DNA of 6,841 nt. Origin: a candidate division WOR-3 bacterium (GTDB lineage: Bacteria > SDB-A). The notes below the pieces were generated by a model that was not told the origin of the DNA, ran no database searches, and saw nothing but the letters and a program-made list of their open reading frames with translations. The DNA lies in contig JAFGON010000098.1 of the NCBI GenBank assembly GCA_016926475.1, positions 1 to 6,841 of the forward strand, in the 5' to 3' direction. Of the stretch, positions 1-6,747 are shown one piece after another. Position numbers and translations under genes: made by a program. Within the stretch, counting starts at the first letter, position 1, and each line of letters starts with the position of its first letter.

Positions 1-996
1 AATCGTGTGTGAAGTCGGCAGGCCGAGGATTTCAGGGTCTATTGATACAGAAGTCACCCGCCAGTTTTTTTTGTCTTTAAAACGGCCGAGAAGAATTTTC
101 CTTATTTCAAGAAGGGCTTTCTGCCTGAATGCTTCATTGTGGACGAGAAGGGGAAAGCTTCTGATTTTTGGTATGCCCTTCAGTTCAACTCTTGTCCCTC
201 CAGACACGCTGACGTTTACGTCCTGTCTTGTCGCTCCTATGCCGGTTCTCACTTTTCCAGTGCTTCTGGTCAAAAACCTGACGTATTGACCGGCTTCGAC
301 TACTTCGAGAGGGTTGAGCATATCTGGGTAGGTGACGGTTTCGACAAGAGGCATTCCGAGTCTGTCGGTTGTGAATATTCTGTCGTGCCTGAAATCCGAA
401 ACCTCTCTGCAGGAATCTTCTTCTAGGCTGAGTTGAATGATTCTCACGTCCTTGTTTTTAAGAGGTATTTTGCCTTCGATACCCACTATAGCGGTTCTCT
501 GAAAACCTGTTGGAATGCTTCCGTCCAAGTATTGTTTTCTTGTTATGTGAAGCTCTCCGACAATGCTCGTGTTGAGAAGGCAAGCTATCTCGAGGGCTAT
601 GTCAAGGGCCTGAAGGTTTACGGGAAAAGGCGGAGTGTCGTCTATTTCATAAGTGCATGTAGTCTCTTTTCTGATTCTGTAGACAATTCTTTTTCTTGTC
701 TTGAACTCCATCAGAGCGGTTCCGTCGTATTCCCCCAGTTCGCTCAGAGTCGGGCGCATGTGCCTTATAACTTCGGCTTCAAAGTCTTCTGGCTCAAAAT
801 AGATTCCCGCCGGGCATCTGCAGAAGAGTTTTTTTGCTGTGAGAAGTTGTTGGTGTATTTCAAGTCCGCATTTAAAACCCAACGAAGAATATGTTTCGTT
901 CCCGGCGCTTTTATACGGGACGAAACTTATGAGCTCTCTTGTCTTCTTTTGATTTTCTGTTCGATTAGAATATTCTTGCATAATTTTAATTGCCAT
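1..996 (-). CDS. gatE: GatE-type Glu-tRNA(Gln) amidotransferase subunit, N-terminal part (runs off left edge)
   Basis: An open minus-strand frame covers the first 332 codons; the 3' end lies outside the window. GatE, with the asparaginase-like subunit GatD, converts Glu-tRNA(Gln) to Gln-tRNA(Gln) in the cytoplasm by activating the tRNA-bound glutamate. Visible family signatures are GLEIHQQL at residues 44-51, an FCRCP motif near 58-62, RPTLSELGEYD at 81-91, TTC and DDTPPFPVN around 112-127, GFQRTAIVG at 164-172, LEEDSCREVSD at 191-201, DRLGMPLVE at 211-219 and RQDVNVSVSGG at 257-267. The SELGE and PPFPVN segments are typical of GatE rather than GatB. An in-frame stop lies about 20 nt upstream, so translation starts at ATG 996 or ATG 981. 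Neither has a clear Shine-Dalgarno site. About 38 residues precede the conserved start, longer than I expect for archaeal GatE. A divergent GatB paralogue is the main alternative. Confidence 0.87.
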   Translation of the reverse strand, partial: MAIKIMQEYSNRTENQKKTRELISFVPYKSAGNETYSSLGFKCGLEIHQQLLTAKKLFCRCPAGIYFEPEDFEAEVIRHMRPTLSELGEYDGTALMEFKTRKRIVYRIRKETTCTYEIDDTPPFPVNLQALDIALEIACLLNTSIVGELHITRKQYLDGSIPTGFQRTAIVGIEGKIPLKNKDVRIIQLSLEEDSCREVSDFRHDRIFTTDRLGMPLVETVTYPDMLNPLEVVEAGQYVRFLTRSTGKVRTGIGATRQDVNVSVSGGTRVELKGIPKIRSFPLLVHNEAFRQKALLEIRKILLGRFKDKKNWRVTSVSIDPEILGLPTSHTI

Positions 997-1062: not shown

Positions 1063-2409
1063 ATGAGAAAAAACCTGTTCTCTGCTTTGGTGACGTCAAT
1101 TCTCTTGTCAGTTCCCGTTTTGCTTTCAGCCGGAGTATGTATACCTGGGCTGGGTTGTTTTTCGGGAGTTGAAGGATGTGAAATAACAACCCCCTGGTAT
1201 AATCCGGGATACCTTGTCACTTATCAACTGGCGATTGAAAAGAACGCTGTGGGAGCTGAGTTCGGTGAAAGATACCCCGGAACAGATCGTTGGGGATTTT
1301 TGCACTACCGGCTTGGTGAGAATTTTTTAGGTTTCGCGGCGAACAGAAAACAGTACCTCGGCGGATATCCTTTTGACACAACATATTTTAGACCGAGAAT
1401 AACCGTCGGTCCGGATGTTTTTCCATACATGCTGGATTCTTTTAAACCACCGACATACATAGCCGATTTTATTTTTGCCAGAAAAATGTTCGGAGGCGGA
1501 GGAGGCCTGAATCTTCATTTCGGTTCTCAATCAAAAGAAAGCGAATACGATTATTTTTTCACTCAGAGTCACGTAAAAGCTGAGCCAGATGCGAACTCTC
1601 TGGGCGGTATTTTTGGAGTTGACAACAAAAACTATTATTTGACCGTAAGCATGGATTATCTCTCATGGAATTCCCTGTTTGAAGTGATTGATTCTTTTGG
1701 CGACACGGTTTCTGCGGATTTCACAAATTCATATTCATCGGCCTCTGTGAATCTGCAGTACAAAAAGTGGACTGATCAAACCAGATATTTCACGCTTCCG
1801 ACAATTTCGTTCACATACGACAGGGCGAACGAGAAAGTTTCTTCAGCCTTGATGGGACTTCCAATCGACCCGGAAAACCGGAGAAACAAGTATTCCATCA
1901 CCGCGGGGGTGGCTTTTGACGACATGGGTGTCCCAAATTCATTCAGCGCTGGAGTCAATTTCGTCTACACCAAGACTGTGAACGATTTTAAGACCGATAC
2001 GGTTTTCACTGACGTTTCCGCGGACACACTTATAAGACGGCTTCCGGGAAAAGCTGAAATAGAAGAATACACATTTCCCCAGGTCTATATTTCGGCCAAC
2101 TTCTTTATCTGGAAGTGGCTCAGCGCGAACACTTCCGTGAATCATTCACTGAAGTATGTAGTAGAAGATGTTGAAAGGTCAAACGTCGAATACGACGGAA
2201 GCAATTATCAGATCGTAAAAAATGAAAATCAGACAACTCGCTGGGAGAGGGATTTGACCTTTGACCTTGGAGCTGAAATCACCATACACGAAGATCTGAA
2301 AATAAATTTTAAAATAGACGACTTGGCCCTTTTCAACGTACCTTACTTGGTTTCGGGCGACAACAGTTTTGAAGTGATCACGAAACTGACGGTCTGGTAC
2401 CAGTTCTAA
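1063..2409 (+). CDS. Predicted outer-membrane beta-barrel protein, family not recognised
   Basis: The product is 448 residues. It begins with a good Sec signal peptide: charged RKN at 2-4, a hydrophobic stretch at about 5-22, and likely cleavage after SA at 22-23. There is no valid lipobox, because Val precedes Cys26. The mature chain has many short alternating polar and hydrophobic segments rich in Tyr, Phe and Trp, and polar loops rich in Asp, Asn and Ser. It ends in the strand-like LTVWYQF with a terminal Phe, as is typical of BAM-assembled barrels. A five-glycine run lies near residues 146-150. The only cysteines (26, 32, 39) cluster just after the signal peptide. It is the first gene of a four-gene run; the next starts 8 nt after its stop. 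Barrel topology is inferred from composition and ends, not from a recognised family. Porin, transporter or secretion-partner roles are all possible. Confidence 0.72.
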   Translation: MRKNLFSALVTSILLSVPVLLSAGVCIPGLGCFSGVEGCEITTPWYNPGYLVTYQLAIEKNAVGAEFGERYPGTDRWGFLHYRLGENFLGFAANRKQYLGGYPFDTTYFRPRITVGPDVFPYMLDSFKPPTYIADFIFARKMFGGGGGLNLHFGSQSKESEYDYFFTQSHVKAEPDANSLGGIFGVDNKNYYLTVSMDYLSWNSLFEVIDSFGDTVSADFTNSYSSASVNLQYKKWTDQTRYFTLPTISFTYDRANEKVSSALMGLPIDPENRRNKYSITAGVAFDDMGVPNSFSAGVNFVYTKTVNDFKTDTVFTDVSADTLIRRLPGKAEIEEYTFPQVYISANFFIWKWLSANTSVNHSLKYVVEDVERSNVEYDGSNYQIVKNENQTTRWERDLTFDLGAEITIHEDLKINFKIDDLALFNVPYLVSGDNSFEVITKLTVWYQF

Positions 2410-2417
2410 ATTCATTA

Positions 2418-3443
2418 ATGATTCATGCCCTTGGTTGTTTTTTATTGACTTTTTGTGTTTTCTCCGAGGGCACGGACCCTGAATTTTTGGATCAATACCA
2501 TTGGATCGTAAAAAATATAGCTGAACGGAACCTTACACCTGAAGAAAGTCTTATAGTATTTAATTCCGTAAAATACCCGGAAATTTCAGCGGAACGATTT
2601 AATTGGTCACAGCCGATCCCCGAAGAAATTTGGAAAAAATACGTTATCTACCCGAGATTGTCACAGGAACCTCTTGAAGATTACAGGCCGTTTTTCTTTG
2701 AAATCCTTGCCGACAGCCTCGATACATGCCAAAACGCGCGAAGCGCTGTGGAGGCGATATTCAGATGGTCTTCGTCTGTCATAAAATTCAGGCAGACTTC
2801 GAGAAGGGACCAGGGGCCTCTTGAGACGTTCTATTCGGGGTACGGAAGGTGCGAGGAGCTTATGATATTCTCAGCTTCGATCTGCAGGACTTTTGGAATT
2901 CCCGCGAGAGAAGCTTTCGTTCCTTACTGGTCTTTCACGGACAACAACCACGCCTGGACAGAGGTCTTCATAGACGGCGACTGGCACTACATAGACGAAG
3001 GAGCCACTCTCGACAGGGCATGGTTTTCGGATTTTCTAGGGAAAACAGCATTGGTCCTTGCTGTATCTCCAGGTTTTGACGAAGGAGAAGATGTTATAAA
3101 AACATACAACGACGCGTCTTTGGTCAACGTCACGGGAAATTACGCACATTCGGGGATACTCACTTTTTTCGTCTCTGACGAAAGCGCTCCTGTTGAGAAC
3201 GCGAAACTATCTTTGATGTCGTATAATTGGGGCGCTTTACGGGAGATTGCAAGCGGATTCACCGACTCTGACGGAGCATTTAGTATAAGATGCGGGCTTG
3301 TATCCGTTTTTGTCCTTTGTTCCTATAACGGAAAAACCGCCACCGGTGTTTTCACACCCGTCAGGGACGATACTGTCACATGCCTTCTCGAGCTTGGACT
3401 GGCGAATGATTTGGATGTTTCGTTTTTGATGAAGGTCAAATGA
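2418..3443 (+). CDS. Secreted transglutaminase-like protein with intact catalytic triad
   Basis: The product is 341 residues. A short hydrophobic N-terminus (about 4-16) without lysine or arginine looks like a minimal Sec signal. Residues about 60-100 are a helical region with the pattern PIPEEIWKKYVIYPR and QEPLEDYR, which I associate with one branch of bacterial transglutaminase-like proteins. The core follows: YGRCEE with Cys145, a GIPAREAF stretch at 160-167, NNHAWTEVF with His178, and WHYIDEG with Asp193. That is the full papain-like Cys-His-Asp triad of the transglutaminase/protease fold. Residues about 243-325 resemble a carboxypeptidase-regulatory (Ig-like) beta-sandwich. Such enzymes may be proteases, amidases or protein crosslinkers; the substrate cannot be told from sequence. 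No Shine-Dalgarno site precedes ATG 2418 and no other in-frame ATG, GTG or TTG was seen between it and about 2370, so translation is probably coupled to the barrel gene. Confidence 0.88.
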   Translation: MIHALGCFLLTFCVFSEGTDPEFLDQYHWIVKNIAERNLTPEESLIVFNSVKYPEISAERFNWSQPIPEEIWKKYVIYPRLSQEPLEDYRPFFFEILADSLDTCQNARSAVEAIFRWSSSVIKFRQTSRRDQGPLETFYSGYGRCEELMIFSASICRTFGIPAREAFVPYWSFTDNNHAWTEVFIDGDWHYIDEGATLDRAWFSDFLGKTALVLAVSPGFDEGEDVIKTYNDASLVNVTGNYAHSGILTFFVSDESAPVENAKLSLMSYNWGALREIASGFTDSDGAFSIRCGLVSVFVLCSYNGKTATGVFTPVRDDTVTCLLELGLANDLDVSFLMKVK

Positions 3444-4810
3444 TGGTTTTTTTGCCCCTATGCTTAGCGTTCGCACTGATCTCTACTCAAATCGAAGACG
3501 ATATTATCGCAAGGGCGGGTGGAAAAGCCCCTCAAATAATAAGGACATACAACGCTTTAGAAGATTCTCAAGAGAGGGAATTCGCTCTGCAGCATATCCA
3601 AATCCTCGGGACTATAGACCTGTTGGAATTCGATTCGGCTATGTTTGTCCAGAACCTGCATAGTTCATGCGGATTTCTCGATTCAATGGCTGTATCTGAC
3701 ACTCTTTTCTTGAAATATCTCCTCGACTACAGAATATATTTTGAACCTCCATCGAATTACAAGCCTCTTTTAAATGACATTTTCAGAGGCTTAGCTGAAG
3801 CTTCAAAAAATCCTGCTGAAACGGCGGTCGCGATTGACGAATGGGCTGACCTGAGTATAATTTCTGATTCGACGAGGCTTTTATCCCCAGGAAGGTCTGT
3901 GATGAAAATATTCACAGAAAGAACCGCGTCGAACATCGAGAGGTCTATTTTTCTCGCTGCGGCGATGAGGTCATTGGGGATTCCTTCAAGGCTCGCCTTC
4001 CTTCCCGCAGGAACTTTGTCAAAACAGCCCTATTCATGGTTGGAATTTTATTCAGACGGCGGTTGGCTGCCTTTTTATCCCGACAATCCGGATATGACCG
4101 GAAACTTCGGTTACGTCGATGAAAAACACGGAGTTAGTATCGTATATTCCTATTCTGCAAACGGAACCGAAGAAAGAACTGCCGCTTACGCTAATAGTCC
4201 CAAAACCGTATTCTTAACGGGAAGTTTGGTTTCAGAAAACGACGCTGAATTCTCGGTCAGCGCAATTTGTTCCGGAACTCTAAAACCTCTTGATTTCCTC
4301 GATTTCAAAACGGATTCTTCAGGGGGGATTTTCTTTTCGATAGGGGAGGGAGATTATTATTTCGTAACCGGCGCCAGAGACGAAGATGGTTCAGCTCAGG
4401 TGGACATCTTCGGTTTTACCGTCGGAAAAGAGGATACGGTTTTTCTGTCGGTTGAAAACCCAGTGTTGACGGAAAACTTCGCATACCAATACATGACATC
4501 AGCCGTTTTCGATTATTTTAAATCTTTGTACTCACAATCTCCCTGCATCATCCTTTTGGGCGATAAAAGATCCGAACCTTATCGGAGGATGAGCGCTGAA
4601 ATAGAGCGTGAAATACCGGATGTTAAACTTTATTTTGCAGATTCATGCGGGTTTGCATTTATCGAAAATGATGTTGTTGGAATCGACGGGGAGGCACCGA
4701 TAGTTATCGGTTTGTCTTCAGATAATGAAAACTCTTTTTTCATCAGCGGGTACTACATCGACATAACTCGCCGTTTAAAGCTATGGCTTGAGAGAATCGA
4801 GGAGGATTGA
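3440..4810 (+). CDS. Secreted inactive transglutaminase paralogue (pseudoenzyme) with extra C-terminal domain
   Basis: The product is 456 residues and begins with a short hydrophobic Sec-like leader (about 3-15). It matches the preceding gene in order and spacing: the KYLLDYRI region near 92-99, IERSIFLAAAMRSLGIPSRLAFLP at about 166-189 (in two parts, IERSIFLAAAMR and SLGIPSRLAFLP), and SWLEF with DGGW at 199-209. At the catalytic positions it has Asn165 for Cys, Tyr198 for His and, in ungapped alignment, Tyr213 for Asp. It should therefore lack transglutaminase-type catalysis. An Ig-like beta-sandwich similar to the neighbour's follows at about 256-340. Residues about 345-456 form an additional domain that looks alpha/beta (strand CIILLGD at 369-375, helix, strand VKLYFADS, strand PIVIGL) and that I do not recognise. 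Its ATG overlaps the previous stop as ATGA. A second ATG at 3443 is better spaced from the weak GAAGG (3431-3435) and may be the true start. Confidence 0.8.
   Translation: MMVFLPLCLAFALISTQIEDDIIARAGGKAPQIIRTYNALEDSQEREFALQHIQILGTIDLLEFDSAMFVQNLHSSCGFLDSMAVSDTLFLKYLLDYRIYFEPPSNYKPLLNDIFRGLAEASKNPAETAVAIDEWADLSIISDSTRLLSPGRSVMKIFTERTASNIERSIFLAAAMRSLGIPSRLAFLPAGTLSKQPYSWLEFYSDGGWLPFYPDNPDMTGNFGYVDEKHGVSIVYSYSANGTEERTAAYANSPKTVFLTGSLVSENDAEFSVSAICSGTLKPLDFLDFKTDSSGGIFFSIGEGDYYFVTGARDEDGSAQVDIFGFTVGKEDTVFLSVENPVLTENFAYQYMTSAVFDYFKSLYSQSPCIILLGDKRSEPYRRMSAEIEREIPDVKLYFADSCGFAFIENDVVGIDGEAPIVIGLSSDNENSFFISGYYIDITRRLKLWLERIEED
4799..4805 (+). promoter_or_regulatory. Strong ribosome binding site of the dehydratase gene
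   Basis: GAGGAGG lies inside the last codons of the preceding gene, 4 nt before ATG 4810. It favours that ATG over the in-frame TTG at 4807. It is the strongest Shine-Dalgarno site in the operon, so this gene may be translated more heavily than the two before it. Confidence 0.85.
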
Positions 4811-5814
4811 TGAAACTTTTCGTGACCGGAGGATGCGGCTTCATAGGTTCAAACTACATAAGGAAAAGGTTCGAGGAAAAACCTTTGGATGAGATCATGA
4901 ACTATGACCTTCTCACCTACGCCGGTAACCTCGAAAACCTTGAGGAAGTCCAAAGATCCCCTCTTAAATACAGTTTTGAGAGAGGAGACATCTGCGACAG
5001 GGAAAGAGTTTTAAAGCTTTTGAAAACTTTTAAACCGGACGTAATCGTCAATTTCGCCGCCGAAAGCCACAACAGTTATTCGATTTTGAACCCCGGTGTT
5101 TTTTTCCGCACAAACACTCTTGGAACTCAAAACCTTCTCGATTGCGCGAGGCTTTCGGGGGTAGACAGGTTCCACCAGGTTTCTACCTGCGAAGTTTACG
5201 GCGACATGAGTCTTGAAGACGACAGCGCTTTTACTGAACGGTCCCCATACCAGCCAAAAACCGTCTACAACGCTTCCAAGGCTTCCGCTGATCACGCTGT
5301 TCGCGCTTACCACAACGTCTTTGGGTTGAACACGACAATTTCAATTTGCAGCAACAACTACGGACCTTACCAGTATCCGGAAAAGTTGATACCGCTTTTT
5401 TTGACCAATATTTTCGAAGGAAAAAAAATGCCACTCTACAAGAGCAGTTCCAACAAAAGAGAATGGCTTCACGTAGACGATCACTGCCGGGCGATAGATA
5501 TGATTATCGCAAACGGCGTAGTTGGAGAGACTTACAACGTTGGAAGTTCTGTTGAAAAGAGCATAGAAGAAATCGCTGATTTGCTGATAGAGCTTACCCA
5601 AGCTTCAGCGAAATCCAAAAACTATGTAGATGACAGACCGGGGCACGACAGAAGATACCTCCTGGACAGCGGGAAAATTCGAAGAGAACTCGGATGGGTG
5701 CCCGAGAAGAGTTTCGAAGAAGGCATAAAGAGCACTGTCGAATGGTACAGGGCAAACACCGGTTGGTGGAAAAGTGTTAAGGACAAAAAGCCGGTTGACG
5801 AGACATCATGGTGA
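4810..5814 (+). CDS. rfbB: dTDP-glucose 4,6-dehydratase family (RmlB/RfbB-like) NAD-dependent enzyme with variant active site
   Basis: The product is 334 residues, close to the family's usual 330-360. These cytoplasmic extended SDR enzymes convert a nucleotide-bound glucose to its 4-keto-6-deoxy form, the entry to rhamnose and other deoxysugars. Visible are the NAD-binding TGGCGFIGS (6-14), YDLLTYAGNLENL (32-44) typical of RmlB, NFAAESH (81-87), the YxxxK pair Tyr153/Lys157 in YNASKAS, CSNNYGPY (180-187), PEKLIPL (190-196), REWLHVDDH (217-225) and DRPGHDRRY (275-283). Two departures stand out. The usual STDEVYG is STCEVYG (125-131), so the catalytic Asp is Cys127, while Thr126 and Glu128 stay. 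The usual HVDRS is HNSYS (87-91). Its start overlaps the previous stop by 1 nt (TGATG). No other deoxysugar gene is in view. Substrate and exact reaction are therefore uncertain; a related NDP-sugar dehydratase or epimerase is possible. Confidence 0.9.
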   Translation: MKLFVTGGCGFIGSNYIRKRFEEKPLDEIMNYDLLTYAGNLENLEEVQRSPLKYSFERGDICDRERVLKLLKTFKPDVIVNFAAESHNSYSILNPGVFFRTNTLGTQNLLDCARLSGVDRFHQVSTCEVYGDMSLEDDSAFTERSPYQPKTVYNASKASADHAVRAYHNVFGLNTTISICSNNYGPYQYPEKLIPLFLTNIFEGKKMPLYKSSSNKREWLHVDDHCRAIDMIIANGVVGETYNVGSSVEKSIEEIADLLIELTQASAKSKNYVDDRPGHDRRYLLDSGKIRRELGWVPEKSFEEGIKSTVEWYRANTGWWKSVKDKKPVDETSW

Positions 5815-6654
5815 AAATGCTTTTTTCATAACCAGGACATCGTTCTCTTTTCCTTCTTCCCAGACTTTGAAGTTGACCTTTGAAAGAGATTCGGCCATTT
5901 CTTTCGAGTATTCCGGAACCATCATTGAGATGTAATCTTCCCCTGAATTTCCAGCGATTAGAGAAACAGCGGGAAGAATTGACATCGAATAACTGCCTGT
6001 CGGCTCGAGAGGGGTGAATATGTCCTTGAAGGCGTGTTTTGGCTGGATGAAGTATTTGTCCTCGAACCTGAACAGCTTTGCTTTTTTTTTCAAAAAACCG
6101 GAAGTGTCACCGCATTTTTTGACGAATTCCCAACCCAGAGGTATGTGGTCGTTATAACCGCATTTCTCTACAAATAGTTCGAAATCTTCTGAAATCGAGA
6201 CAGAATCCTTCCCGCATGGTTTGAATTTTTTGCTTTCAGATGATATTGATGTGAAATATTCGGCAGCGGCAAAACCGTCTCTTGTCGTGAGAGAAAGAGA
6301 TTCTTCGTTCAGGTAATACGTGGCGAACTCTGCTGATTGTATCTTGCCCGAAGAGAGAATCTGGCGGACCTTTTCCGCCGTGAAATCATAGAGAATTCTG
6401 CCCCAACCCCGGCCTTGAGAATTTTTGTGGACTCTCAACCCTTCAAGCCAGAGGGTCTGACATGGGTAAAAAGAAATTTTTACTGTGCCGATGACTTTGT
6501 TTTGTGTCTCGAGAACCCATAAATTGCCGTCTTTCAGCCATTCATCGAAAATTTCATCGAGGAAGTCGTGGCCTTCCCAGGTGTTTTCAGAAATGTCCGC
6601 GATGAAAGGCATGTCTTCTTTTCTGCATTCTCTTATCAGGAAATCTTTGTCCAT
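5806..6654 (-). CDS. GNAT-family N-acetyltransferase with C-terminal extension
   Basis: The product is 282 residues. The N-terminal half is a GNAT fold, which transfers an acetyl group from acetyl-CoA to an amine. It shows the opening IRECRKEDMPFIADI (7-21, the usual beta1-alpha1), the strand NKVIGTVKI (52-60), and motif A as LEGLRVHKNSQGRGWG (70-85) with the CoA-binding QGRGWG. LNEESLSLTTRDGF (115-128) fits the usual motif B region. Residues about 145-282 form a second region of unknown function, making it nearly twice the length of a single-domain GNAT; it may be a degenerate second GNAT repeat. ATG 6654 was chosen because GGAGG precedes it closely and the conserved fold begins right after. 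An upstream in-frame ATG at 6726 would add 24 polar residues without a ribosome binding site. Its 3' end overlaps the convergent dehydratase gene by 9 bp. The acceptor substrate cannot be predicted. Confidence 0.85.
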   Translation of the reverse strand: MDKDFLIRECRKEDMPFIADISENTWEGHDFLDEIFDEWLKDGNLWVLETQNKVIGTVKISFYPCQTLWLEGLRVHKNSQGRGWGRILYDFTAEKVRQILSSGKIQSAEFATYYLNEESLSLTTRDGFAAAEYFTSISSESKKFKPCGKDSVSISEDFELFVEKCGYNDHIPLGWEFVKKCGDTSGFLKKKAKLFRFEDKYFIQPKHAFKDIFTPLEPTGSYSMSILPAVSLIAGNSGEDYISMMVPEYSKEMAESLSKVNFKVWEEGKENDVLVMKKAFSP

Positions 6655-6658
6655 GGCG

Positions 6659-6663
6659 CCTCC
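6659..6663 (-). promoter_or_regulatory. Ribosome binding site of the acetyltransferase gene
   Basis: On the minus strand GGAGG stands 4 nt before ATG 6654 and decides between that start and ATG 6726. Confidence 0.8.
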
Positions 6664-6673
6664 AATTGAGGGT

Positions 6674-6702
6674 AATTTATCAGATTGACTTAAATTCAAC
6701 AA
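6674..6702 (-). promoter_or_regulatory. Weak candidate promoter of the acetyltransferase gene
   Basis: On the minus strand TTGTTG (6702-6697) and TAAATT (6679-6674) are 17 nt apart. The spacing is ideal but the matches to consensus are only 3 of 6 and 4 of 6. The leader would be about 13 nt, just enough to contain GGAGG. Confidence 0.25.
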
Positions 6703-6719
6703 GGTTTTTTGATTTTTTC

Positions 6720-6747
6720 TTGACATGACAAATCAATTAAGTAAAAT
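6720..6747 (+). promoter_or_regulatory. Promoter of the tRNA gene
   Basis: A perfect TTGACA (6720-6725) is followed after 16 nt by TAAAAT (6742-6747), 5 of 6 matches to the -10 consensus. The predicted start near 6754 is only a few bases before the mature tRNA 5' end at 6759. This is the best sigma70-like promoter in the window. Confidence 0.75.

Follow-up and report, generated by a model that had tools for sequence, protein, structure and literature searches.

Two questions are raised by a short operon in a candidate division WOR-3 bacterium: why would a putatively exported enzyme of the transglutaminase (TG) fold be encoded directly ahead of a second protein of the same fold that has lost its catalytic residues, and does the outer-membrane protein encoded just upstream belong with them? 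The stretch of DNA analysed here (the window, 6,841 nt) makes up an entire contig (G000:C98) in a draft genome of roughly 2.15 Mb. Among genomes with a name, those closest to it are an assembly assigned to WOR-3 (Caldifarciminota) and one deposited under the name 'Desulfuromonas sp. SDB', which falls in the same family. Below, G000 denotes the genome of the window and f1 its family, which is represented by four genomes (G000-G003).

Three consecutive genes on the plus strand raise the issue. The first (1063..2409, 448 aa) encodes an outer-membrane beta-barrel-like protein with an N-terminal hydrophobic stretch and a C-terminal WYQF. The second (2418..3443, 341 aa) encodes a live TG-fold enzyme followed by an Ig-like domain, assigned from PF01841, an alignment and PDB profile matches, and the third (3440..4810, 456 aa) encodes a dead TG, an Ig-like domain and a C-terminal TlpA-like thioredoxin fold, assigned from PF01841, alignments and a residue table. 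The close packing reported in a first-pass annotation of this DNA is borne out by the coordinates of the reading frames: 8 nt lie between the barrel stop (TAA, 2407-2409) and the ATG of the live TG at 2418, and the stop codon of the live TG gene and the start codon of the dead one share an ATGA (3440..3443), with a second in-frame ATG at 3443. It was postulated that the three genes are made together as one unit. The tight joints agree with this, but the gene count does not, since rmlB, encoding dTDP-glucose 4,6-dehydratase (4810..5814, plus strand; TIGR01181, 399 bits, above cut-off), starts within the stop codon of the dead TG gene (TGATG at 4808-4812, with GGAGG upstream). Given this overlap, the operon is likely to hold at least four genes, with rmlB as the fourth.

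The live/dead overlap is 4 nt in four other genomes (G001, G002, G360 and G149) and 8 nt in G003. Two further species of the genus share this arrangement, with equally tight joints: gatD and gatE (divergent), barrel, TG, dead TG, rmlB and a gene for a GNAT acetyltransferase (convergent). The repetition of the barrel-TG-dead TG-rmlB order in these species argues that the arrangement is not due to chance. In the window itself, gatE (1-996, minus strand) lies upstream of the barrel gene, and the GNAT gene (5806-6726, minus strand) is convergent with rmlB, as it is in 4/4 f1 genomes. The GatDE of this lineage is an archaeal-type amidotransferase in bacteria; gatE is followed by gatD in relatives (L051:948-4288; L052:5891-9231), and the profile scores (497 bits for TIGR02153 and 375 bits for TIGR00134) are both above cut-off.

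Each of the three proteins (barrel, live TG and dead TG) has a single N-terminal hydrophobic stretch and no later membrane helix. This is the pattern that exported proteins would have, and the earlier prediction that all three are exported is consistent with it.

Residues and domains of the two transglutaminases

The live TG matches the Pfam Transglut_core profile (PF01841) with an E-value of 6.8e-15 and 55.7 bits, against a cut-off of 23. As first proposed, it has catalytic residues, C145 in GRCEE and H178 in NNHAW, both of which are invariant in the alignment of the live TG, and the Cys and His are kept in 28/28 live domains. The third, acidic residue is the D/E of DEG within the genus and the E of CEP in most relatives, with none clear in G003 and G294; because this position varies, 'live' is used here to mean that Cys and His are conserved. 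Profile searches of the PDB matched 3e8v (E 1e-9) in the Ig part and 3isr (E 5.3e-6) in the TG core. Taken together, these features indicate that the live protein is most likely a Cys-His hydrolase or transamidase of the transglutaminase superfamily that carries an Ig-like domain.

The second TG had been called catalytically dead, and this holds: although PF01841 is still matched (E 4.2e-11, 43.5 bits against the same cut-off of 23), neither Cys nor His is present at the aligned positions. Both residues are missing in 24/24 dead domains and also in the proteins of G104 and G235. Ten dead sequences, nine of them 21-41% identical to the tenth, which is the window protein, keep E102-P103, W200-x-E202, W209-x-P211, G279, E379, R383 and P420; the strictly invariant positions include E102, P103 and P211. 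Wherever the locus is complete, the dead TG gene is intact. With intact genes and invariant residues, the dead TGs are evidently not decayed genes. They do evolve fast, with 40-41% identity within the genus versus 61-67% for the live TG and the barrel.

The C-terminal part of the dead protein is predicted to have the same fold as the TlpA/AhpC-TSA thioredoxins (PF00578). In G241 this tail matches PF00578 itself (E 2.7e-11), with Redoxin also above cut-off, and in the window protein the predicted elements run strand, helix, strand, strand, strand, helix in a low-confidence AlphaFold2 model (pLDDT 43, from three alignment rows). However, the CxxC of such thioredoxins is missing in every dead member that has the domain. 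Nearly all of these, whether split or fused, show E-x-S-x-R or a similar motif at that position (E-P-Y-R-R for the window protein), and the cis-Pro position is kept. Lacking both this CxxC and the Cys and His of its TG domain, the dead partner is a double pseudoenzyme. Foldseek on the low-confidence model returned 4xz7, 3isr, a CopC-type Ig domain and thioredoxin 2ipa, at E-values of only about 0.01-0.1; these hits agree with the TG, Ig and thioredoxin parts but are given no weight here. The profile of the dead family gave no usable match in the PDB, and NCBIfam holds no family for either the live or the dead TG.

Distribution and history of the live-dead pair

To follow the pair in other bacteria, profiles of the live and the dead TG were run against 386 genomes, and the loci were read in all frames. 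A live TG, counted above 150 bits, is present in 29/386 genomes, and full-length dead TGs were found in many families. The dead TG gene is adjacent to the live one in 11 of the 29 (G000-G003, G019, G072, G149, G241, G280, G355 and G360), and in another 10 the two lie in one reading frame (G010, G105, G126, G141, G207, G272, G314, G316, G328 and G340). In four genomes (G006, G152, G283 and G294) they are on different contigs; three loci (G053, G084 and G286) are cut by a contig end; and in G333 no dead partner for the live TG was found in the genome. Adjacency or fusion thus holds in 21/26 scorable genomes, and the live TG precedes the dead one in all the fused proteins and in 10/11 adjacent pairs. 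Apart from G141, a weak case with a dead half of 32.6 bits, and G272, which was judged by eye, the dead halves of the fused proteins reach 81-186 bits when scored with a dead profile that excludes them (shuffles, <11). Two genomes of one family, G104 and G235, encode a lone TG without Cys and His that matches the live profile weakly, falls in the dead clade and has no live partner (L112:4880-5896 and L113:4532-5539). In G006 and G283, the dead TG gene is overlapped by a gene for a 335-aa protein with no Pfam match (L056:8907-9914 and L100:8275-9282).

Nine further genomes of the phylum of G006 were searched, with catalytic residues not read. In 5/5 genomes of family f264, the live TG, the dead TG and the Ig/thioredoxin part are fused in one frame of 850-869 codons. 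Three others (G394, G395 and G397) have both TGs on separate contigs, and G396 has neither. Split and fused forms therefore occur within family f69 (split in G072, fused in G207 and G328) and also within one phylum (fused in all five f264 genomes, split in f4, f149 and f265). The presence of split and fused forms side by side is a classical sign of two proteins working together, and its occurrence at both levels suggests that the live and dead TGs do so. Linkage is not obligatory, given the different contigs in four of the sampled genomes and in three of the phylum of G006. The live-dead pairing itself is well supported.

In a tree of 54 domains, a single branch (SH-aLRT 99) divides the live from the dead copies, so that the distribution of the two states takes one change; none of 500 shuffles was as low (0/500). 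This single, well-supported branch indicates that the dead form arose long ago and has been inherited together with the live one, and is not a product of recent decay. A recent duplication followed by decay in the lineage of the window was considered as an origin and is ruled out by this tree. The same small groups recur on the live and the dead sides (G019+G294, G006+G283, G149+G280, G207+G328, G105+G126 and the window family), and live and dead distances co-vary (Spearman 0.44, 2/2000 permutations), part of which shared species history alone would give. Judged from these sequences, the live-dead TG pair is old and widespread in bacteria.

It could be argued that the dead TG is a free-standing peptide- or glycan-binding protein that sits next to the live one only through tandem duplication. 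Such a protein could well be unlinked from the live TG, as is seen in f4, f149, f265 and G294, could occur without it, as in the dead-only G104 and G235, and could evolve as fast as the dead copy does. However, live and dead copies diverged long before the present neighbourhoods arose, and yet the two are still adjacent or fused in most scorable genomes and in a nearly constant order. An independent role for the dead TG is consequently unlikely.

A proposed function for the pair

We favour, with a probability of roughly 0.6, a model in which the two TG proteins form an exported enzyme-pseudoenzyme pair that acts as a single unit outside the cytoplasm. The model builds on features that are seen directly, namely domain content, loss of catalytic residues, adjacency or fusion, the deep live/dead split and co-inheritance; export, physical contact, the kind of reaction, the substrate and a regulatory role are its inferred parts. 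After export of both proteins, the dead one would dock on the live Cys-His enzyme and would hold, present or gate a protein or peptide substrate for it. The reaction of the live enzyme would more likely be proteolysis or deamidation than cross-linking. Cross-linking enzymes are a minority of the bacterial members of the transglutaminase superfamily. Hydrolysis is ranked first because cross-linkers are few and because the nearest solved enzyme by sequence, 3isr, is a putative cysteine protease. The superfamily as a whole includes proteases, deamidases, N-glycanases (PNGases) and cross-linkers (PMC10318531).

The conserved adjacency or fusion across bacteria suggests that the dead copy is a needed partner of the live one. 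A more far-reaching version of the model, which is put forward only tentatively, is that there is an ancient, bacteria-wide system in which the live TG depends on the dead TG, with its dead thioredoxin domain, as an obligate activator or substrate clamp, whether the two are encoded by two genes or fused. If so, this system has so far been hidden under the label 'transglutaminase domain-containing protein'.

Parts of the pair resemble proteins already on record. Like the live TG here, 3e8v ('Possible transglutaminase-family protein'), which is presumably from Bacteroides fragilis, has an Ig-like domain after a live-type TG, but the structure is of the 82-residue Ig domain only, so the comparison is limited to that part. 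The putative cysteine protease of Cytophaga hutchinsonii (3isr) shares the live transglutaminase-like core; we know of no dead partner for it. A dead bacterial TG that, like the one here, is encoded in an operon and acts outside the cytoplasm has been described in the rlo operon (PMC12239564). However, it is a membrane protein with an aspartic protease and an ATP-grasp partner, and it has neither a live TG partner nor a thioredoxin domain; the window's dead TG has no membrane-type hydrophobic stretch past its N-terminus and thus lacks the seven transmembrane helices of the RloB-type inactive TG. Inactive TG domains of polymorphic toxins, which are proposed peptide binders, are likewise secreted and at times lie beside Ig domains (PMC3482391), but they form the N-terminal part of RHS toxins, with no live TG pairing and no thioredoxin domain described. 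In the literature searched, which covered few subscription papers, no description of a live-dead TG pair or of tandem or paired inactive TGs was found. Thus, dead TGs are known in bacteria, and what appears to be new is a dead TG that is paired with a live one and carries a thioredoxin domain.

To our knowledge, secreted TG-fold enzymes are common in bacteria, and the substrate and control are known for few of them. A conserved dead partner, fused or separate depending on the group, would provide a handle on both. The pair is open to co-expression, to finding of the interface and to substrate trapping on the dead protein, and it would be a clear and old bacterial case in which an enzyme has been retained alongside its own dead duplicate.

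The barrel and rmlB

The first-pass annotation had joined the barrel to the two TGs in a three-part module whose genes should stay together in relatives. The TG half of this idea is strongly supported by adjacency, fusion and co-inheritance across many families; the barrel half is not. The 1063-2409 product can reasonably be taken as an outer-membrane beta-barrel: a C-terminal Y-x-F ending is common to all six barrel relatives, and one of the six aligned members, though not the window protein itself, matches OMP_b-brl (PF13505, E 8.5e-8). The AlphaFold2 model has a pLDDT of 28, from two alignment rows. Among the 386 genomes searched, however, full-length relatives of this barrel were found only in the four genomes of f1. 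Even within f1 the two can be unlinked: in G003, contig C395 has the barrel gene next to gatE, whereas the TG pair, preceded by a divergent gene, is found together with rmlB and the GNAT gene on C252. Together, the restriction to f1 and the unlinked barrel of G003 lead us to reject a conserved module that contains the barrel.

If the barrel and the live and dead TGs formed a single assembly at the outer membrane, serving surface processing or secretion, this would account for the gene order and close packing shared by three species of the genus, and for another type of barrel gene upstream of the TG pair in G149. Besides the distribution just described, however, a barrel paralogue without TG genes beside it is present in G000 and G001, and most other TG pairs have no adjoining barrel. 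Such an assembly is quite improbable, and we retain the enzyme-pseudoenzyme pair, with the barrel, and likewise rmlB, probably being a co-transcribed neighbour in f1 that lies outside the conserved machine. Least probable of all is a live protein that acts on surface glycoproteins as a peptide:N-glycanase-like or cross-linking enzyme, with sugar supplied via rmlB: rmlB adjoins the dead TG and encodes the sole RmlB above cut-off in 4/4 f1 genomes, and PNGases belong to the same superfamily (PMC10318531), but no rmlB lies near the TG pairs outside f1, the sole Rad4/PNGase match, from one dead copy, has an E-value of 0.17, and the PDB entries usefully matched by sequence comprise a putative cysteine protease and an Ig domain. 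The barrel of G149 mentioned above is of a different family, the Alginate_exp type (PF13372, E 4.8e-11), and is encoded at L103:3856-5160.
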